From: Paucibacter sp. TC2R-5
Lineage (GTDB): Bacteria; Pseudomonadota; Gammaproteobacteria; Burkholderiales; Burkholderiaceae_C
Assembly (NCBI RefSeq): GCF_025717605.1
Contig: NZ_JAJIRQ010000002.1
Coordinates: 143,884-207,883 of the forward strand
Direction of reading: 5' to 3'
Length of the DNA: 64,000 bases
Numbering within the stretch: position 1 is the first letter of the stretch; each line of letters starts with the position of its first letter. Positions 4,690 through 14,091 of this stretch are shown one piece after another. A model generated the notes under the pieces. That model ran no database searches and had not been told where the DNA came from. It worked only from the letters and a program-made list of their open reading frames with translations. Made by a program: the position numbers and the translations under genes.

Positions 4690-7590
4690 ATGAGACTCTC
4701 CCTCTCAATCAGCCTGGCGCTTGGCGCCATGGCCGCCGGCAACCCCGCGCTGGCCTATAACTGCAGCGGCGTGGCCGAGTGGTCCAGCGCCACCGCCTAC
4801 CTCAGCGGCGGCATCGTCCAGCAAAACAAACAAGCCTACCAAGCCAAATGGTGGACGCAGAACAATACGCCCGCGACCAACTCAGGCCAATGGGATGTCT
4901 GGAAGCCGCTCGGCGCCTGCGACGGCGTCGTCGTCAACCAGCCGCCGGTGGCGGCCTTCAGCAGCAGCGTCAGCGCGCTAACAGCCAGTGTCAACGGCGC
5001 AGGCTCCAGCGACCCGGACGGCAGCATCGCCAGCTATGCGTGGAACTTCGGCGACGGCTCTTCTGCCAGCGGCGTCAGCGCCAACCGCACTTACGCGGCG
5101 GCTGGCACCTACACGATTAGCTTGACGGTCACCGACAACAAGGGTGCCACCGCCAGCAAGACCGCCCAAGTCACCGTCAGCGCCACCTCCACCAACAAGC
5201 CGCCCACCGTCGCACTGACCGCGCCCGGCGCCAGCGCCACCCCGGCCGCCGGAGACGCAGTCACGCTCAGCGCCAATGCGTCCGATAGCGATGGCAGCGT
5301 CGCCAAGGTCGCCTTCTTCGTCAACGGCGCCTTGGTCGGCGAAGACAGCACGGCCCCCTATTCTTTAAGCTGGACGGCACGCGCCGGTGTCAACGACATC
5401 GTCGCCCGCGCCACCGATGACAAGGGCGCCAGCAGCGACAGCGCCGCCGTGCGCGTCACCGTCAGCGGCCTGCCGCCAGCCGGCGACGAGCGCTGCCGCC
5501 CCGAGGGCATGATCACCAGCCCCGGCACCGCACCCGCCTATTGCAAGGTCTATGACAGCCAAGGCCGCGAGATCATGGGCAGCGACAAACCGCGCCGCAT
5601 CATCGGCTACTTCACCAGCTGGCGCACCGGCAAGAACGGCCAACCGGCCTATCTCGCCAGCCAGATCCCCTGGGCGCAGCTGACCCACATCAACTACGCC
5701 TTTGCCCATATCGATGGTGCCAACAAGGTCTCGATCGGCAACGCCGCCGACCCGAACAACCCGGCCACCGGCATCAGCTGGCCCGGCGTGGCCGGCGCCG
5801 AGCTGGACCCGGCCCTGCCCTATAAAGGCCATTTCAACCTGCTGAACAAGTACAAAAAGCTCTATCCACAGGTCAAGACCATGGTGTCTATCGGTGGCTG
5901 GGCTGAGACCGGCGGCTATTTTGACGACGCCGGCAAACGCGTCGCCAATGGCGGCTTCTACACCATGACGACCAATGCCGACGGCAGCGCCAACGTCGCC
6001 GGCATCAACACCTTTGCCGACTCGGCCGTCGCCTTCCTGCGCCAATACGGCTTCAACGGCGTGGACATCGACTACGAATACGCCACCAGCATGAAGGACG
6101 CCGGCAACCCGGACGACTTCGCGATCTCCAACGCCCGCCGCGCCACGCTGACCAAGAACTTTGCCGTGCTGATGCAAACGCTGCGCGCCAAGCTCGACGC
6201 CGCCGGCCAGGCCGACGCACGCCATTACCTGCTGACGGTGGCCGCGCCTTCTTCCGCCTACCTGCTGCGCGGCATGGAGAACTACCAGGTCACCCAGTAC
6301 CTGGACTACGTCAACATCATGAGTTATGACCTGCACGGCGCCTGGAACCAGTTCGTCGGGCCGAACGCCGCGCTGTTTGATGACGGCAAGGACGCCGAGC
6401 TGGCCGCCTGGAGCTATTACACCAGCGCCCAGTACGCCAATATCGGCTACCTCAATACCGACTGGGCCTACCACTACTTCCGTGGCTCGATGCCGGCCGG
6501 CCGCATCAATATCGGCGTGCCTTATTACACCCGTGGCTTCAAGGACGTGGTGGGCGGAACCAACGGTCTCTGGGGCCAAGCCGCGCAAGCCGACCAGACC
6601 AAATGCCCGGTCGGTACCGGCGGCGGCACGGTGCAGAAATGCGGCGCAGGCGCGATCGGCATCGACAACCTCTGGCATGACCTAGATGTATCCAGCAAGG
6701 AAGTCCCGGCCGGCTCCAACCCGCTCTGGCACACGATGAATCTGGCCGCCGGCCGCCCAGGCAGCTACCTGGCCGCCTACGGCCTGAACCCGGCCACTAA
6801 CCCGGCCGATCAGCTGACCGGCAGCTACGCCAGTTTCTTCGATGCCAAGCTGGTGGCGCCCTGGTTGTGGAACGCGCAAAAGCGCGTCTTCCTGTCGACC
6901 GAGACCGAGCAAAGCCTGGCGCTCAAGGCACAGTACGCGGCCGAGCGTGGCATTGGCGGCGTGATGTTCTGGGAGCTGGCCGGCGACTACGGCTGGGACG
7001 CCGCGCGCGGCGAGTACTTCATGGGCAACACGCTGACCACGCTGCTCTACAACAAGTTCAAGACCGCGCCGGCCTATGGCAACCGCTTGACCAGCGCAGC
7101 CATGCCGACAGAAAGCCTGGACATCGCCGTCAGCATCGCCGGCTTCGCGCTCGGTGACGCCAATTACCCGATCAACCCCAAGCTGACGCTGACCAACAAC
7201 AGCACGCAAACCCTGCCCGGCGGCACGGACTTCAGCTTTGATATCCCGACCGCGATTCCGGCCACGCTGACCGACCAGACCGGCTTTGGCCTCAAGGTCA
7301 TTCAAAGCGGCGCCAACACGGCCGGCAACAACATCGGCGGCCTCACGAACGACTTCCACCGCGCCGCTTTCAAGCTGCCGACCTGGCAAACGCTGGCACC
7401 GGGCCAGAGCGTCACCATCGCGCTGAACTACTACCTGCCTATGCCCATGCCGAGCAACTGGATCGTCAGCTTTGGCGGCAAGTCCTACAGCCTCAAGCAA
7501 GAAGCGCGGCGTGCCGACTTGGCGCCACTAACAGCGACGGCAACCACCACCTCAGCCAAGCTGGCGCCAACAGCGCTGCGCAAGAACTGA
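4690..7590 (+). CDS. Secreted multidomain GH18 chitinase
   Basis: Retaining chitinase of 966 aa. Order: signal peptide (1-22), CBM5/12 (24-77), PKD (about 84-163, WNFGDGS), a bacterial Ig-like domain (about 170-260), GH18 barrel (about 302-790), and a C-terminal beta-rich region (about 800-966) that resembles the ChiC-type domain found after GH18 in other proteobacteria. The catalytic signature is NGVDIDYE: D459, D461 and the acid E463 are present, while the first Asp of the usual DxxDxDxE is Asn456. SxGG is also present (SIGGW, 400-404). AAGGAT lies upstream of the ATG. The gap to the preceding chitinase is about 100 bases with no clear terminator, so co-transcription is likely. Confidence 0.95.
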   Translation: MRLSLSISLALGAMAAGNPALAYNCSGVAEWSSATAYLSGGIVQQNKQAYQAKWWTQNNTPATNSGQWDVWKPLGACDGVVVNQPPVAAFSSSVSALTASVNGAGSSDPDGSIASYAWNFGDGSSASGVSANRTYAAAGTYTISLTVTDNKGATASKTAQVTVSATSTNKPPTVALTAPGASATPAAGDAVTLSANASDSDGSVAKVAFFVNGALVGEDSTAPYSLSWTARAGVNDIVARATDDKGASSDSAAVRVTVSGLPPAGDERCRPEGMITSPGTAPAYCKVYDSQGREIMGSDKPRRIIGYFTSWRTGKNGQPAYLASQIPWAQLTHINYAFAHIDGANKVSIGNAADPNNPATGISWPGVAGAELDPALPYKGHFNLLNKYKKLYPQVKTMVSIGGWAETGGYFDDAGKRVANGGFYTMTTNADGSANVAGINTFADSAVAFLRQYGFNGVDIDYEYATSMKDAGNPDDFAISNARRATLTKNFAVLMQTLRAKLDAAGQADARHYLLTVAAPSSAYLLRGMENYQVTQYLDYVNIMSYDLHGAWNQFVGPNAALFDDGKDAELAAWSYYTSAQYANIGYLNTDWAYHYFRGSMPAGRINIGVPYYTRGFKDVVGGTNGLWGQAAQADQTKCPVGTGGGTVQKCGAGAIGIDNLWHDLDVSSKEVPAGSNPLWHTMNLAAGRPGSYLAAYGLNPATNPADQLTGSYASFFDAKLVAPWLWNAQKRVFLSTETEQSLALKAQYAAERGIGGVMFWELAGDYGWDAARGEYFMGNTLTTLLYNKFKTAPAYGNRLTSAAMPTESLDIAVSIAGFALGDANYPINPKLTLTNNSTQTLPGGTDFSFDIPTAIPATLTDQTGFGLKVIQSGANTAGNNIGGLTNDFHRAAFKLPTWQTLAPGQSVTIALNYYLPMPMPSNWIVSFGGKSYSLKQEARRADLAPLTATATTTSAKLAPTALRKN

Positions 7591-7630: not shown

Positions 7631-9670
7631 ATGAAATCACCTCAACGCAGCCTGCTCAGCCTCGCAGCTGTCATCGCGGCCGGTTTGGCCAGCCCCGTCG
7701 CCTACGCTTTTGACTGCAGCGGTGTGCCGGAGTGGAGCGCCCAAGGCACGTACACCGCCGGCCAAAACGTGCAGCAATCCAAACAGGCCTTCCAGGCCAA
7801 ATGGTGGACGCAGAACAACACGCCCGCGAGCAATTCCGGCCAATGGGATGTCTGGAAGCCGCTGGGCGCCTGCGATGGCGTGCAGGTCGACACCACGCCG
7901 CCCACGGTGCCCGCCGGCCTGAGCGCCAGCGGCGCCACGACCAGCAGCATCACGCTGAGCTGGAGCGCCTCGACCGACGCCGGCAGCGGCGTGGCCGGTT
8001 ATGACGTGCTGCGCGGCGGCAGCGTGGTCGCTTCGCCCTCCACCACCAGCCTGGTGGACAGCGGCCTTACCGCCGGCACCGCCTACAGCTATGCAGTGCG
8101 GGCACGTGACAAGGCCGGCAATGTGTCGGCCGCCAGCAGCGCCTTGCTAACCAGCACCGCCAGCGGCGCCTGCGCCTCGGCGCCGGCCGCACCGAGCGGC
8201 CTCACCTCCCCCTCGCAGACCAGCGCCAGCGTCGCCCTGACTTGGACGGCATCCGCCGCTGCGCCCAACTGCACGGTGCAATACCGTGTACAGCAAGCGA
8301 CCACACAAGTCGCCCAGACCAGCAGCACCAGCGCCACCGTCAACAGCCTCGCGGCCGACACCGCCTACAACTTCAGCGTTGTCGCTTTCAACCAGGCCGG
8401 TGCCTCGCCCGCTTCACAGGTGCTCAGCGTGCGCACCGCCAAGGCGGATGTGAGCGGCGCCAAGAACGTGCTGGGCTATTTCGCGCAATGGGGTATTTAC
8501 GACCGTAACTTCAATGTCAAAGACATTGACGCCGGCGGCGCCGCGGCAAGGCTGACCCATATCAACTATGCCTTCGGCAATGTGCGCAATAACCGCTGCG
8601 AAGTGGGGCTGACGGTGCCCGTGAACGAGAGCACCGGCGTCGGCGGCGACGCTTTTGCCGACTACACCAAGTCGATTCAAGCGGCGCAAAGCGTCGACGG
8701 CGTGGCCGACCTGTGGGACCAAAAGCTGCGCGGCAGCTGGGGTCAGCTCAAGAAGCTCAAGGCCAAATACCCCAAGCTCAAGGTCTTGATCTCGCTGGGC
8801 GGCTGGACCTATTCGCGCGGCTTCTCCAGCGCGGCAAGGCCGGAGAACCGGGTCGCTTTCGTCAAGTCCTGCGTTGACGCCTATATCAAGGGTGACTTGC
8901 CGGTCACCGATTACGCCGGCGGCCCCGGTGCGGCGGCCGGTGTATTCGACGGTATCGACATCGACTGGGAATACCCGGTCGCCTGCGGCCTGAGCTGCGG
9001 CGCGCCCGAGGACAAGGCCAATTTCACCGCCTTGCTGGCCGAGTTCCGCAAGCAACTCGACGCCGCCAAGCCCGGCCTACTCTTGACGATTGCCGCACCC
9101 GCCGGCATCGACAAGATCCGCGTGATGGACCCCGCAGCGTTCCATCCCTCGCTGGATTTCATCAATGTGATGACCTATGACTTCCACGGTGCGTTCGAGC
9201 CCACGACCGGCTTCCACTCGGCGCTCTATGCCTCGCCAGCCGACCCCTCTACCGGCGATGTGCGCCTCTACAACAGCAATGACGCGATCCAGGCCTTCCT
9301 GGACCGCGGCGTGCCGGCCAAAAAGCTCAATCTCGGCATCGGTTTCTACGGTCGCGGCTGGACCAATGTGCCCAATGTCGGCAACGGCCTCTACCAGCCG
9401 GGCGTGGGCGCGCCGGGCAAGTACGAGAAAGGCATCGAGGACTACCGCATCCTCAAGACCCTGGGCTACCCGAGCTTTGTCGATGCGGCCTCGCGCGCGC
9501 AGTGGATTTACAACGGCACCACCTTCTGGAGCTTTGACACCCCGGTGCAAATCACCGAGAAGATGAACTACCTGAAGAGCAAGAACCTGGGCGGCGCCTT
9601 CTTCTGGGAGTTCAGCGGTGACGACGCCAACTCGACGCTGCTGAAGGCGATCAGCGACGGGCTGAAGTAA
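7631..9670 (+). CDS. Secreted GH18 chitinase with CBM5/12 and two FnIII domains
   Basis: Chitinase of 679 aa. Signal peptide 1-26 (PVAYA), CBM5/12 (28-82), two fibronectin type III domains (about 89-175 and 184-268), then a GH18 barrel (277-678). The catalytic motif DGIDIDWE is complete, with E447 as proton donor; SLGGW is at 388-392. AGGAG sits seven bases before the ATG, and the gap to the previous chitinase is 40 bases, consistent with one operon. The CBM-coding DNA is nearly the same as in the preceding gene (see findings). FnIII spacers instead of PKD/Ig give a different reach between binding module and catalytic site. The 3' end overlaps the convergent degenerate-GGDEF gene by 20 bases. 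Confidence 0.95.
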   Translation: MKSPQRSLLSLAAVIAAGLASPVAYAFDCSGVPEWSAQGTYTAGQNVQQSKQAFQAKWWTQNNTPASNSGQWDVWKPLGACDGVQVDTTPPTVPAGLSASGATTSSITLSWSASTDAGSGVAGYDVLRGGSVVASPSTTSLVDSGLTAGTAYSYAVRARDKAGNVSAASSALLTSTASGACASAPAAPSGLTSPSQTSASVALTWTASAAAPNCTVQYRVQQATTQVAQTSSTSATVNSLAADTAYNFSVVAFNQAGASPASQVLSVRTAKADVSGAKNVLGYFAQWGIYDRNFNVKDIDAGGAAARLTHINYAFGNVRNNRCEVGLTVPVNESTGVGGDAFADYTKSIQAAQSVDGVADLWDQKLRGSWGQLKKLKAKYPKLKVLISLGGWTYSRGFSSAARPENRVAFVKSCVDAYIKGDLPVTDYAGGPGAAAGVFDGIDIDWEYPVACGLSCGAPEDKANFTALLAEFRKQLDAAKPGLLLTIAAPAGIDKIRVMDPAAFHPSLDFINVMTYDFHGAFEPTTGFHSALYASPADPSTGDVRLYNSNDAIQAFLDRGVPAKKLNLGIGFYGRGWTNVPNVGNGLYQPGVGAPGKYEKGIEDYRILKTLGYPSFVDAASRAQWIYNGTTFWSFDTPVQITEKMNYLKSKNLGGAFFWEFSGDDANSTLLKAISDGLK

Positions 9671-10331
9671 GCGCCTGGCCCGCAGCAGGGTGTGGCAGCA
9701 GATTTGCAGGCTGCCTACCTTGCTTGGCGGCCGCGATCGAACCTTGGCCGAGGGCCACTTCGGCGGCGCGCGTCAGATCAGACGCGCAGATGCGTGGGCA
9801 TTCGCATTTGGCAATGCCGCTGACCAAGCTGGCATAGAGCGGCTGCGGCGCCAACTCATAGGCGCCGCTCAAGACCCGCTGCAGCCGCTCCTGAATCACA
9901 TGCACATTGGCGCGTTCGACGTTTTGCAAGACCACGCCAAAACGTCGCTCGCCAATGCGGGCCACCACATCGGTGCCACGCACCCGGCTGCGCAGGCGCG
10001 CGCCCAGGACATCCAGCAAGCTCGCGGCCTGCGTCTGCTGCTGCACCGGCTGGCCCAGCGGCTCGCGCACCTCCACATCGATCAAAAGCACTGCCGGCCG
10101 GGTGCCGAAGCGCCGCGCATGGTTCAGTTCACGCCCGACCAGCTTGGCAAAGCCTTGGAGGCTGGGTAGTTGAATCATGGCGGGCAGGCCCGCCAGCTCT
10201 ATAGCCTGACGCTCGTTGAACAACAAGGAAATATCGGCTGTCGCTTTGTTTTGCACGGGAATTTGGAGGTGTTGGCGCCAAAAATAACGGGCGGGGTGAG
10301 GATCACAAACGCTCGGCGACAGCCCATACAT
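9651..10331 (-). CDS. Degenerate GGDEF-domain protein with intact I-site
   Basis: 226 aa, no signal peptide or membrane segment. Residues from about 57 onward match a GGDEF fold (FAKLVGRELNHARRF, then VLLIDVE), but the active-site loop reads GERRF at 127-131 instead of GGDEF, so cyclase activity is not expected. The RGTD motif at 118-121 lies exactly five residues before it and matches the RxxD I-site that binds c-di-GMP. It is therefore more likely a c-di-GMP receptor than an enzyme (inference). The start at 10331 is supported by an upstream GGGAGG. An alternative start at the Met near residue 52 would trim a poorly conserved N-terminus. It converges on, and overlaps, the third chitinase. 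Confidence 0.75.
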   Translation of the reverse strand: MYGLSPSVCDPHPARYFWRQHLQIPVQNKATADISLLFNERQAIELAGLPAMIQLPSLQGFAKLVGRELNHARRFGTRPAVLLIDVEVREPLGQPVQQQTQAASLLDVLGARLRSRVRGTDVVARIGERRFGVVLQNVERANVHVIQERLQRVLSGAYELAPQPLYASLVSGIAKCECPRICASDLTRAAEVALGQGSIAAAKQGRQPANLLPHPAAGQALTSARR

Positions 10332-10779
10332 ATGGCCTCCCTGTCATCAACAAGTGTTCATGTCCTCTCTCAATAAAACGGGATCCATCCGCCAAACCCG
10401 ACATCGCTTTGAAAATATTTTGCAGCGCTCGGCGCAAGCTGAATCAGCCAGCCGCAAGGGACCCTCTGCAAAACCCCGGTGGGCCGCGGCGGTATCTTTG
10501 CGGGATGCTGGCCAAGGCGAGGCCCGCCGCCCAGACTCGTGTCTGGGTAAGGGTCGCAACGCCGGCCAGCGCCCGCAAAGACCCGCCCCAAAGGGTTTGC
10601 GAGAGAACAGGCCCTCTCGGTCCTTGCGGTGCTCGGCAGTCGGGCACAAAGCCCGACCTTCGCACCGCGCCTTCGAGCCGGCCTGTTCTCTCGCAAACGC
10701 GACCCACTGGGGATTTGCAGAGGGTCCCTAGAATGCGGGCTGCCGTATGGCTTGAAACCCGCCAATTCCCCAGAGCCAG
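10332..10779. other. Intergenic region occupied by a nested inverted repeat
   Basis: Short open frames exist on both strands, but they simply read the two arms of the inverted repeat at 10458-10728 and look unlike proteins. Outside the repeat lie the promoter regions of the divergent degenerate-GGDEF gene and sigma-factor gene; I cannot assign -35/-10 boxes. Confidence 0.6.
10458..10728. repeat. Cloverleaf-like nested inverted repeat, 271 bases
   Basis: Outer stem: 10458-10485 pairs with 10701-10728 with only a few mismatches. Inside are two long arms. Arm 1: 10491-10513 pairs with 10564-10583 and carries an inner perfect hairpin CCCAGAC/GTCTGGG (10530-10536 / 10541-10547, loop TCGT). Arm 2: an 18-bp perfect stem, 10596-10613 with 10680-10697, then GCGGTGC/GCACCGC (10626-10632 / 10662-10668), then GTCGGGC/GCCCGAC (10639-10645 / 10651-10657, loop ACAAA). 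The result is a three-way junction with two branched arms. It could be a mobile or repetitive palindromic element, a structured RNA, or a cruciform-forming protein target; no transposase is nearby. Confidence 0.8.
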
Positions 10780-11358
10780 ATGAGCGACATCACCGTTTTG
10801 CTACGCGCCGCCGGCCTTGGCGACGCCGCCGCTGCTGAAGCCGTGGTGGCCCTGCTTTATGCCGACTTGCAAAAGATGGCGCACAGCCGCATGCGTCAGT
10901 CCGGCCACCTGACCCTGCTGGACGCGACCGGCCTGGTGCACGAATCGTATTTGCGCCTCTACAGCAAGCTGCACAAAGCCGACGGCGAGCAGCAGCAACA
11001 AGATTTTCCCGACCGCAAGCATTTCCTCGCCTATGCCTCGCGGGTGATGCACAGCATCGTCATCGACATGGTGCGGGCCCGCCAAGCCGCGCGCCATGGC
11101 GGCGAGTTCGAGCATGTGACACTGAACACAGCGGTGGCCGAGCTGCCGCCGCAGGGCGACGACGAGATTCTGCGTGTGCACGAGGCGCTGGCCGAGCTGG
11201 CGGAGATGGACCCGCGCCTGGCGCAGGTGGTGGAAATGCGTTACTTCGGCGGGCTGCTCGAGGCCGAGATCGCCCAGACCCTGGGCGTGACCGAGCGCAC
11301 GGTGCAACGCGACTGGCAAAAGGCGCGGCTGTTTTTGTCCATGGCGCTTCGATCATAA
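10780..11358 (+). CDS. ECF-type RNA polymerase sigma factor (TIGR02999-like)
   Basis: 192-aa sigma-70-family protein with region 2 (about 20-100, LTLLDATGLVHESYLRL and a DRKHFLAYASRVMH stretch) and region 4 (about 125-190, with EIAQTLGVTERTVQRDWQKAR as the helix-turn-helix). The sequence pattern matches the ECF subgroup that is usually encoded next to a Ser/Thr kinase instead of a classical anti-sigma factor. Here the kinase gene starts nine bases downstream. No anti-sigma gene is visible. The target promoters cannot be told from this window. Region 4 is complete and no residue looks damaged. Confidence 0.9.
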   Translation: MSDITVLLRAAGLGDAAAAEAVVALLYADLQKMAHSRMRQSGHLTLLDATGLVHESYLRLYSKLHKADGEQQQQDFPDRKHFLAYASRVMHSIVIDMVRARQAARHGGEFEHVTLNTAVAELPPQGDDEILRVHEALAELAEMDPRLAQVVEMRYFGGLLEAEIAQTLGVTERTVQRDWQKARLFLSMALRS

Positions 11359-11367
11359 AGAACCGGC

Positions 11368-14091
11368 ATGAACGAAACGACGCGCCGCAGTATTGATAAG
11401 TCCCGCTGGCCGCTCTTGAGCCCGCTGCTGGACGAGTTGCTGGACCTGCCCCCCGAACAGCGCCCGGCCCGTTTGCAAACGCTGGAGGCCCAAGACCAAG
11501 AGCTGGCCGCCGACCTGCGCGAGCTGCTGTGGCGCCAGGACGCGATGGACGCGGCCAACTATCTGGCCACGCCCGCGCTGCAAACGATGGAGACGCAGCA
11601 ACAACAAGCCAAGGCCAGCAACAGCGCCGGCCAGCAGCTCGGCGCCTACACGCTGGAGCGCGAGATCGGCCAGGGCGGCATGGGCACGGTCTGGCTGGCG
11701 CGCCGCACCGATGGGCGCTTTGACGGCCTGGCCGCGATCAAATTCCTCAAGGCCGGCTTGCTCGGCCGCGGCGATGCAGGCCGCTTTGCCCGCGAGGGCC
11801 AAATCCTCGCCCGCTTGGCGCATCCGCATATCGCTCGCCTGCTGGACGCAGGTATTACCGAAAGCGGTGAGCAGCCCTATCTGGTGCTGGAATATGTAGA
11901 CGGCCTGCCGCTGGACCAATATTGCGACAGCCAGGCACTGACGGCCCGCGCGCGCGTGGCCTTGTTCCAGGACGTACTCGCGGCGGTAGCGCACGCGCAC
12001 ACGCGGCTGATCCTGCACAGGGACCTGAAGCCGTCCAACATCCTGGTGACGGCAGCCGGCGAAGTCAAATTGCTGGACTTCGGCATTGCCAAACTGCTGC
12101 ATGAAGAAGGCGCCACTGAAGCCGCCGCGACCGAGCTGACCCGCCAGGCCGGCCGCGCCTACACCCCACGTTACGCCGCGCCCGAGCAGGTGCAGGGCTT
12201 TGATGTCAGCACCGCCACCGATGTCTACGCGCTGGGCGTGCTGCTGTACCTCTTGCTGTGCGGTCAGCACCCGACGACGCCGGGCGAGGAAGAACACACC
12301 ACGCCGCTGGAGCGCATGCGCACGCTGGTCGAGGTAGCGCCCAGAAAACTGTCGGATCAGGTGCCTGATAAGGCCCAGGCCCGCGAGCTGCGCGGCGACT
12401 TGGACACCATCGTTGCCAAAGCGCTGAAAAAGCTGCCCGCCGAGCGCTACACCAATGCTGCCGAGCTGGCCGAGGACCTGCGCCGCTGGCTCAGCGATGA
12501 GCCAATTGCCTCCAGGCCGGACAGCCGCGCCTATGTCCTGAGCAAATTCATACGCCGGCACCGGGTGGCGGTCGCGGCAGGCACGGCGGGCGTGCTGGCC
12601 CTGGCCGCGCTGACGACGCTCAGCGTCGCCCAGGCCTGGCGCGCCGAGCGGGCCGAAAAACTGGCGCTGCAGCGCAGCGCCGAAGCCGATGATCTGCTCG
12701 GTTATATGCTCGGCGAGTTTGCCGACAAATTGCGGCCGCTCGGCCGCATGGAGCTGCTCAATGATGTCGGCGCGAAAGCGCTGGCGCATTTGAAGCTCGC
12801 GAACGCGGTCGAGGCCACCGAGGCGGCCGGCCTCACCATGACCCCGAACAGCATCTTGCAACGCGCCAAGGCGCTGACGGTGCTGGGCGAGGTCAGCGTC
12901 AACAAGCGTGAGCTGGACGCCGCCGTCGAGCCGCTGCTGGCTGCCCGCAAGCTGCTGGCCGGCGCCAGCCCCGAGCCCGGCTTGGCCAATGACTGGCGCA
13001 AAGCGCAGGGCACCGCCGCCTTTTGGCTCGGACATGTGTATTTCACCAAGCGGCAATTGGCGCCGGCCAAGCTGGCCTGGGAAGACTATCGCCTGGGCAG
13101 CGAGGCTTGGCTGCGGGACGCGCCTGGCCAGTTTGAGCCCTTGCGCGAGCTGGCTTATGCGCTGACCAATTTGGGCGTTCTGGCACTTGAGCGCGGTGAC
13201 ATCAGCAGCGCGGTTGAGCAGCTTCAGGCTTCGCAAGCGCTGAAGCAAAAGGCTGTAGTCCTTATGCCGCAAGACCAGTCTTTGCGAGCGGACTATGCCG
13301 AGGGCTTCAGTTGGTTGGGTTCGGCCTTGGTGACGCAGGGAGAGTTCCTGGCCGGCAAGCGCAGCTTTGAAGACGGCCTCGAACAGATCGCCAAAGCTCG
13401 AGCGTTGGCGCCGCATGACCTCGACTGGATCGAGCGCGAGGCCACGATGCGTTTTCATCTGGGTCGTGTTTTGCTTAGTCTGAAGGAAAGCAGGCTGGCT
13501 GTGGTGACATTGCAGCAAGCGCAAGTTCAATTTCAGGACCTGTTGCAAACAGACCCTGCACGACGCACATGGCGGCAAGCCTTGATCCGCACAAGGCTTG
13601 CGCTGGCCGAAGCCTCTCCCACGAACGTTGACGCTTCTCTGGCCAAGGCATCTGTCGAACAATTGGTGGCGATGGATCAGGGCACCGGCGCTTCGAGCAG
13701 TTTGCGGCGCCTGCCGCTGCGCACCCAGGCCAGCCTTGCCTTGGCCAAGGACTTACAAGCAAAACATGAGAACGATGCAGCTCGGGAACTACTGACGAGC
13801 CTGCTGCCAAGCCTGGCCCAGGCGCTGAGCAAGCAGCCCGAATATCTGCGCCTGCACATCGCCAATGCCCAACTGCGGCTAGGTCTGGCCGAACTGGCCC
13901 GGCAGCGCCGGGACGAAGCAGCGGCACATGCGCAATGCGTCACGCTAATTGACGAACTACAAGGACAGCGCCGGCTTTTGCAGCTTCATTACGAGATCAC
14001 CGAGGTCTGGGTTCAAGCACATTCCTGCCTGGGTCGCAAGGAGGCCGTGCAGGCGGAGCAGGATTGGTTGCGCAGCAAGCTCGGCACCTGA
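11368..14091 (+). CDS. Transmembrane Ser/Thr protein kinase with TPR-like C-terminus
   Basis: 907 aa. Cytoplasmic N-terminal kinase domain (about 94-375): glycine loop GQGGMG 101-106, catalytic Lys in AAIK (K124), HRDLKPSN with catalytic D219, DFG 237-239 and APEQ 271-274, so an active kinase is expected. One membrane helix lies at about 400-422, followed by a long helical TPR-like region (430-907) outside the membrane. The layout matches PknS of Xanthomonas citri, which activates its partner sigma factor EcfK to induce type VI secretion (established in that organism). The same partner logic is inferred here from the nine-base gap to the sigma gene. No T6SS genes are in the window. Confidence 0.9.
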   Translation: MNETTRRSIDKSRWPLLSPLLDELLDLPPEQRPARLQTLEAQDQELAADLRELLWRQDAMDAANYLATPALQTMETQQQQAKASNSAGQQLGAYTLEREIGQGGMGTVWLARRTDGRFDGLAAIKFLKAGLLGRGDAGRFAREGQILARLAHPHIARLLDAGITESGEQPYLVLEYVDGLPLDQYCDSQALTARARVALFQDVLAAVAHAHTRLILHRDLKPSNILVTAAGEVKLLDFGIAKLLHEEGATEAAATELTRQAGRAYTPRYAAPEQVQGFDVSTATDVYALGVLLYLLLCGQHPTTPGEEEHTTPLERMRTLVEVAPRKLSDQVPDKAQARELRGDLDTIVAKALKKLPAERYTNAAELAEDLRRWLSDEPIASRPDSRAYVLSKFIRRHRVAVAAGTAGVLALAALTTLSVAQAWRAERAEKLALQRSAEADDLLGYMLGEFADKLRPLGRMELLNDVGAKALAHLKLANAVEATEAAGLTMTPNSILQRAKALTVLGEVSVNKRELDAAVEPLLAARKLLAGASPEPGLANDWRKAQGTAAFWLGHVYFTKRQLAPAKLAWEDYRLGSEAWLRDAPGQFEPLRELAYALTNLGVLALERGDISSAVEQLQASQALKQKAVVLMPQDQSLRADYAEGFSWLGSALVTQGEFLAGKRSFEDGLEQIAKARALAPHDLDWIEREATMRFHLGRVLLSLKESRLAVVTLQQAQVQFQDLLQTDPARRTWRQALIRTRLALAEASPTNVDASLAKASVEQLVAMDQGTGASSSLRRLPLRTQASLALAKDLQAKHENDAARELLTSLLPSLAQALSKQPEYLRLHIANAQLRLGLAELARQRRDEAAAHAQCVTLIDELQGQRRLLQLHYEITEVWVQAHSCLGRKEAVQAEQDWLRSKLGT

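Follow-up and report, generated by a model that had tools for sequence, protein, structure and literature searches.

MITEs are usually regarded as decayed transposons with an unimportant interior. By ends and target, the nearest described relative that we met is MITEPsy1 of Pseudomonas syringae, which, as far as the available text of its description goes, is 100 nt long, has no coding sequence, carries IS5-type ends (GGAAGGTCTGAAAAAGCC), uses a CTAG or YTAA target and transposed in vivo, with the IS5-family transposase ISPsy2 favoured by the authors as its mover (PMC3189936). The same text reports well conserved copies in P. syringae pathovars only, and remoter homologues elsewhere. MITEPsy1 is thus like the element considered here in being small and gene-free with IS5-type ends; however, it measures only 100 nt, and no two-armed cloverleaf is described for it in the text available (PMC3189936). 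REP units, as described in the accessible portion of one account, are 20-40 bp long with GTAG or CGTC tags, and some REP dimers lie within longer palindromes (PMC3733652). REP/BIME sequences share with the present element the inverted hairpin pairs and the mostly intergenic location, but the latter is set apart by its arms of about 100 nt and its IS5-type ends. In QMITE2 of Coxiella burnetii, terminal repeats of 23-29 bp enclose a non-coding core of 113-145 bp, flanked by direct repeats of 7-9 bp, according to the available text (PMC10969869). The likeness here extends to the terminal repeats, the non-coding core and a stable predicted transcript fold; QMITE2 differs in its direct repeats of 7-9 bp and in that, in the text available, no covarying architecture across many genera is described. 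No description of the two-armed core was found in a full-text literature search that included the accessible text of PMC4666352, ISfinder and subscription journals lying outside its scope.

Architecture of the element and its two inverted arms

The element lies in a 64,000-nt stretch of Paucibacter sp. TC2R-5 DNA (contig NZ_JAJIRQ010000002.1, positions 143,884 to 207,883), hereafter the window, and is a member of a widespread gene-free family of about 270 bases. An earlier note on this DNA had read a large cloverleaf-like nested inverted repeat here; this is confirmed, and its coordinates are exact for an element that runs GGGACCC...GGGTCCC. The note had also placed it between a GGDEF gene and a sigma-factor gene, where it does lie, although it takes 271 of the 448 bp and not the whole space. 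The neighbours are a GGDEF-domain gene on the minus strand (9651-10331, start codon at 10331) and, beginning 51 bp downstream of the element, an ECF sigma gene on the plus strand (PF07638, 10780-11358) followed by a large protein-kinase gene, the pair spanning 10780-14091. Next to the GGDEF gene stand two adjacent GH18 chitinase genes (4690-7590 and 7631-9670), which carry CBM 5/12 modules together with PKD/Ig or fibronectin-III domains. The parts of the element are as follows.

10456..10457, no strand: left copy of the target dinucleotide, now AA (TA in the empty sites of three relatives)
10458..10728, no strand: whole element, 271 bp, non-coding
10458..10488, plus strand: left arm of the outer stem, equal to the left terminal inverted repeat (GGGACCCTCTGCAAAACCCC...), from inverted repeat and fold
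10488..10587, plus strand: arm 1, bulged hairpin of about 100 nt, from the fold
10513..10519, plus strand: 5' half of the arm motif, CAAGGCG (family consensus CAAGGCGC), from the arm alignment
10556..10564, plus strand: 3' half of the arm motif, GCAACGCCG, from the arm alignment
10587..10595, no strand: central mini hairpin CCC-AAA-GGG, from the fold
10595..10698, minus strand: arm 2, homologous to arm 1 in inverted form, from fold and arm alignment
10698..10728, minus strand: right arm of the outer stem, equal to the right terminal inverted repeat, from inverted repeat and fold
10729..10730, no strand: right copy of the target dinucleotide, TA, from the empty-site comparison

Folded as RNA, 10458-10728 reaches -205.6 kcal/mol on the plus strand, as against -120.4 +/- 5.6 for 200 dinucleotide shuffles (z -15.3; 0/200 as good), and the minus strand is equally remarkable in its stability at z -15.8, so that folding of both strands, as had been proposed, gives a stable structure on each. 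By inverted-repeat comparison the outer arms (10457-10488 and 10698-10729) are complementary at 91% over 32 nt; the predicted fold gives 28 pairs over 31 positions, in agreement with the outer stem of about 28 bp seen earlier. The stem of arm 2 (10595-10619 with 10674-10698) is 92% complementary over 25 nt and opens with the perfect stem previously described, which is 19 bp long rather than 18, and that of arm 1 (10495-10504 with 10572-10581) is perfect over 10 nt. Because the short central hairpin is also present, the predicted structure contains a four-way junction. The open reading frames at the element are overlapping ones of 87-131 aa in several frames, none of transposase size, by which a protein gene is ruled out; its size, its copies and its ends rule out a simple terminator or REP.

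When arm 2 is reversed it can be aligned with arm 1: the two are inverted copies of one bulged hairpin of about 100 nt. Across 112 arms from 56 elements (an alignment made without L201 and L221, whose fold is non-standard, without L195, and without 7 of the 15 first-set elements) the kept motif is CaAGGCGC....CGc.G - tip - cAaG....GCAACGccG, with capitals marking at least 80% conservation, while the stems vary. The fold of L143, for example, leaves the motif with an AA bulge on one side and an AAC bulge opposite. The window copy deviates from the motif at one base per arm, and has A where the consensus CAAGGCGC has its last C. Since the arms are inverted copies, each strand presents one arm in each sense, and since the core consists of two inverted hairpin copies plus a tiny hairpin, either strand can form the same four-way cloverleaf. 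The core can also be rearranged, as is seen from an extra insert of about 70 bp between the arms of L025 and L026 and from the one-armed copy L014. In genome G007, where the former two are found (L026 at 1309-1649, L025 at 1501-1843), the insert has hairpins of its own, as if a small palindrome had entered the junction.

Insertion at TA and dispersal among relatives

The window element is an insertion. Comparison with empty sites, as proposed in the earlier note, found an uninterrupted TA at this position in three relatives (Paucibacter sp. B2R-40, P. oligotrophus CHU3 and Roseateles MAG_41), which read CCGC-TA-GAGTG where the window reads CCGC-AA-[element]-TA-GAATG. Among 80 sigma-gene loci fetched from other genomes none holds a complete core (0/80), and one, L080, holds a half-core broken off by the contig end. 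The target duplication, AA on the left and TA on the right in the window, is TA/TA in L011, L015 and L026 and mismatched in some other copies; it is clear for part of the copies only, and other end types look like TNA or are ambiguous. Because the element stands upstream of the sigma/kinase pair and is absent there in the three relatives, expression of this pair may differ from that in those relatives.

When the rest of the genome and the relatives were searched, the former held no second copy (single copy by blastn) and the latter held homologues. Within the genus, 5 of 18 genomes gave matches, the window's own included, and G007 alone holds six copies with both ends as well as four partial copies at contig ends. 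In the family, blastn at E 0.001 matched 26/299 genomes in 18/141 genera, with two candidates scored per genome and the weakest matches merely 22-37 nt long. A covariance model of the core, R2 (217 positions, built from 15 elements, ends excluded), matches the window at 10485-10701 with 230 bits; it reaches 181/399 genomes and 85/141 genera of the family and 44/369 genomes and 36/272 genera of the class, the 44 including the window's genome and one other of the same family. In these two large searches 5-6 candidates were scored per genome and the model E-values are rough. With 150 candidates scored in each of 12 chosen genomes, from 2 to 51 matches were obtained per genome (G314 51, G124 18, G209 15), a tally in which many places count twice, the element being almost identical to its reverse complement. 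The single-contig genome G164 has two cores of the same score, 227.1 bits.

Possible vehicles were sought among replicons and viruses. Neither the window element nor L167, L147 or L181 had a match in 72,556 plasmid records, and the window's end gave there a single weak hit, inside a gene. The L149 type is present with its full core in one plasmid record (Comamonas odontotermitis NZ_CP083452.1), and a further core, found via its end, is carried by a Variovorax paradoxus replicon. No match to L186 or to the window element was found in 50,697 phage records, nor to one relative, L202, in E. coli. In IMG/VR the motif pattern found 13 contigs, of which 3 have a full-length core, one a weak match; the full-length cores filed there as viral (L312, L321 and L322) possibly lie in prophages or host flanks.

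The dispersed copies, empty sites, transposon-type ends and lack of an internal gene support the suggestion, made in the earlier note, of a mobile palindromic repeat that may be moved in trans. Which enzyme might move it bears on a further reading, that of a giant REP/REPIN-like element whose arms would be hairpin sites for a RAYT/Y1 tyrosine transposase. Two inverted imperfect hairpins, a bulged motif and dispersion do recall REP dimers, and Y1 genes (PF01797) occur in 9 of 12 element-bearing genomes tested. However, no Y1 match was found in the other three, G314, G124 and G209, which hold 51, 18 and 15 model matches, and by strict pattern the arm motif is present at 0/8 RAYT loci, with one loose hit (L325). 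The arms, at 95-104 nt and with a different conserved motif, are unlike REP units of 20-40 bp with a GTAG or CGTC tag, and both the TA insertion site and the terminal repeats resembling those of DDE elements argue against such a mover. Two Y1-type (RAYT-like) matches are found in the window's own genome, at G000:C34:207912-208238 (L328) and G000:C42:239426-239749, and the arm motif does not flank L328. A RAYT is not required as the mover of the element, and the REP/REPIN-like reading appears highly improbable.

Conservation of the fold

An alignment of 15 sequences (A1, made without L148-L152, L170, L150, L014 and the inserted copies L025 and L026; L014, with its truncated arm, was also left out of model R1) keeps pairing in 96.7% of cells and has two-sided changes at 41 of 96 pairs, a result equalled by none of 500 shuffles, with a pairing score of 0.297 as against 0.041-0.064 for slid versions. 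Relatives with nothing but remnants lacking conserved pairing would, by the earlier note, have refuted its reading; the pairing is instead kept, with compensatory changes. When 66 elements of 254-280 bp were folded singly (the 15 aligned plus 51 model hits out of the 52 ranked highest among those with loci, L228 being excluded for lack of an outer repeat), 61 shared the four-way architecture and 5 departed from its exact form. In the 61 standard folds each side of the outer stem spans 24-34 positions and each arm 95-104 nt, and the central mini hairpin is CCCGAAGGG in 29 and CCCTTCGGG in 11. The outer repeats lay outside the search model, R2 selecting for arms and not for the outer stem, and an outer inverted repeat scoring at least 17 was found at 51/52 model hits (all save L228), whereas 0/206 control placements within these loci had one, the best of them scoring 12.

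An ordinary IS5-derived MITE with a functionless cloverleaf might produce a similar appearance, if quasi-palindrome correction, a switch of template at the replication fork, kept its palindromes perfect. Inverted repeats are common in MITEs, the stems are near-perfect and the outer stem co-varies too. However, differences between close copies are mostly one-sided (56, as against 8 two-sided) and those between the most distant mostly two-sided (48 one-sided, 164 two-sided), the reverse of what instant correction would give, although the sequence pairs are not independent. The two-sided share of pair differences accordingly rises with divergence, from 0.12 through 0.37 and 0.65 to 0.77, a trend that is descriptive for the same reason; it suggests that pairs are broken first and compensated later, which fits selection and not immediate templated repair. 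The recurrence of the bulged motif in both arms of 56 elements and the constant architecture of 61/66 copies despite sequence change also speak against a functionless cloverleaf, which we regard as quite unlikely. That the fold is under selection is well supported by these comparisons of sequences, and its retention across many bacteria while the sequence changed suggests that the fold itself matters.

Such a fold might act as a structured RNA (a terminator, an RNase III substrate or a regulatory RNA) that spreads as an insertion and works on read-through transcripts. The very stable RNA fold on both strands is compatible with this, the dyad would suit transcription arriving from either direction, and the elements lie mostly between long ORFs. 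A simple ORF call gives 50 of 62 an ORF neighbour on both flanks, the neighbours being in line for 22, convergent for 17 and divergent for 11; another 6 fall within an ORF and the last 6 lack an ORF neighbour on one flank, whereas 788 of 982 control intervals fall inside ORFs. These figures indicate a tendency only, because an insertion breaks the ORF that it enters, and some insertions may yet be intragenic. However, divergent spacers are used too (11 of the 50 with two ORF neighbours), and G-U pairs, which make up only about 5% of pairs, are in excess on neither strand: 87 versus 82 in 15 elements and 269 versus 269 in 51. This equality speaks against an RNA of one strand. An apparent excess of G-U over A-C of about 2:1, counted by eye, was an artefact of the strand used for folding, and the strand-balanced count is unbiased. 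At the gathering score, Rfam recognized in nine relatives a neighbouring tRNA only, and at a relaxed threshold Rfam 15 gave two hits below cut-off in the window, the better a viral element with 26.5 bits where 55 are called for; a known RNA family is ruled out by the lack of an Rfam match at cut-off. The structured RNA offered as one option in the earlier note is thus weakened by the equal G-U counts, and we hold it to be unlikely.

Variable ends and a proposed mode of propagation

The ends are less conserved than the core. When different end types are aligned, the ends are 34-68% identical and their cores 70-89%; L167 and L145, for example, share 89% of the core and 57% of the ends. Over 66 copies the outer 30 nt have a mean identity of 29%, a figure that is too low, as the comparison was ungapped and the starts were unaligned. 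At least two end types occur in one genome, G164. The end type AGGGCCTGTTNACRCTA is present in 72 of 250 genomes, and its reversed control gave 0 in the genomes listed. At least 46 facing pairs of this end were found among the places listed, 31 of them 264-272 bp apart, one at 298 bp, 7 of 99-182 bp (the size of a one-armed element) and 7 of 48-85 bp, with little beyond the ends. Derivatives of 48-52 bp that are almost ends alone are seen at L238 (1501-1549), G118:C144:469-520 and G247:C6:7388-7435.

At two loci, L236 and L244, the partner end lies at 825 and 828 bp, and these are insertion sequences, presumably of the group named IS427, in which one frame matches PF13340 and another a DDE domain (DDE_Tnp_1, DDE_Tnp_1_2), the DDE match passing the curated cut-off in L244 and falling short of it in L236. 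Each has one end that agrees exactly with the AGGGCCTGTTNACRCTA pattern, while its opposite end shows 1 mismatch in L236 and 2 in L244, so that at the sequence level one end type of the family matches IS5-family insertion sequences, and only for this type are the terminal repeats shared with an autonomous element. The insertion sequence in L244 is 77% identical to plasmid elements of Variovorax and Polaromonas annotated 'IS5 family transposase'. These IS5-family insertion sequences are like one end type of the element in their ends, and are flanked by TA, but differ in having transposase frames and no cloverleaf core. The element-bearing genome G276 has a similar insertion sequence with CTAGGGCGTGTTAACAC ends (L297). 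The window's end type resembles, without being the same, the end of another IS5-type locus, TAGGGATGTCCTGCAAAAC (L294); an insertion sequence with the window's own ends was not found in the genomes searched. IS630/Tc1, a first guess from the TA target, was dropped, insertion sequences with such ends being of the IS5 family. PF13340 was found in 0/10 element-bearing genomes, and PF01609 in 5 of 9 (none in G164, G247, G124 or G567). Since several genomes rich in the element gave no match to an IS5-type transposase, the enzyme may have been lost there, or another enzyme may be at work.

Taken together, these observations allow a model to be proposed in which the element is, probably, a non-autonomous transposon of the MITE kind whose ends are of IS5 type and whose folded core is under selection and works in either orientation. 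It is short, it lacks the capacity to code for a transposase, and its dispersed copies have empty counterparts in relatives. The two sides of the outer stem would represent terminal inverted repeats like those of the IS5 family, and a transposase acting in trans, most probably an IS5-family enzyme, would join them before inserting the element at TA. The core, two inverted bulged hairpins of about 100 nt and a tiny hairpin, would not be a decayed transposase gene; as single-stranded or extruded (cruciform) DNA, the latter named in the earlier note as a possible protein target, it would fold, bringing both ends side by side and offering the bulged motif to a protein, whatever the orientation of the insertion. 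We infer that selection keeps the fold for its help in propagation, the folded form most likely being single-stranded or cruciform DNA; its role would then lie in transposition, and not in transcription or in toleration by the host. More tentatively, and with some doubt, the superfamily may be defined by its fold and not by its transposase, a common factor reading the cloverleaf through the motif with its AA and AAC bulges while the ends are swapped among IS5-group types. Were this true, ends could be borrowed from any IS5-group transposase at hand, which would account for multiplication in genomes without a detected IS5 transposase.

In this family the interior is the better-conserved part of the element, its four-way fold being retained through compensatory change in many genera of a single class even as ends and stems change. 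The natural variants make a role of the folded core in transposition or host tolerance directly testable, and annotators gain a model for a repeat family that was found, among 399 genomes sampled from one family of bacteria, in 181.
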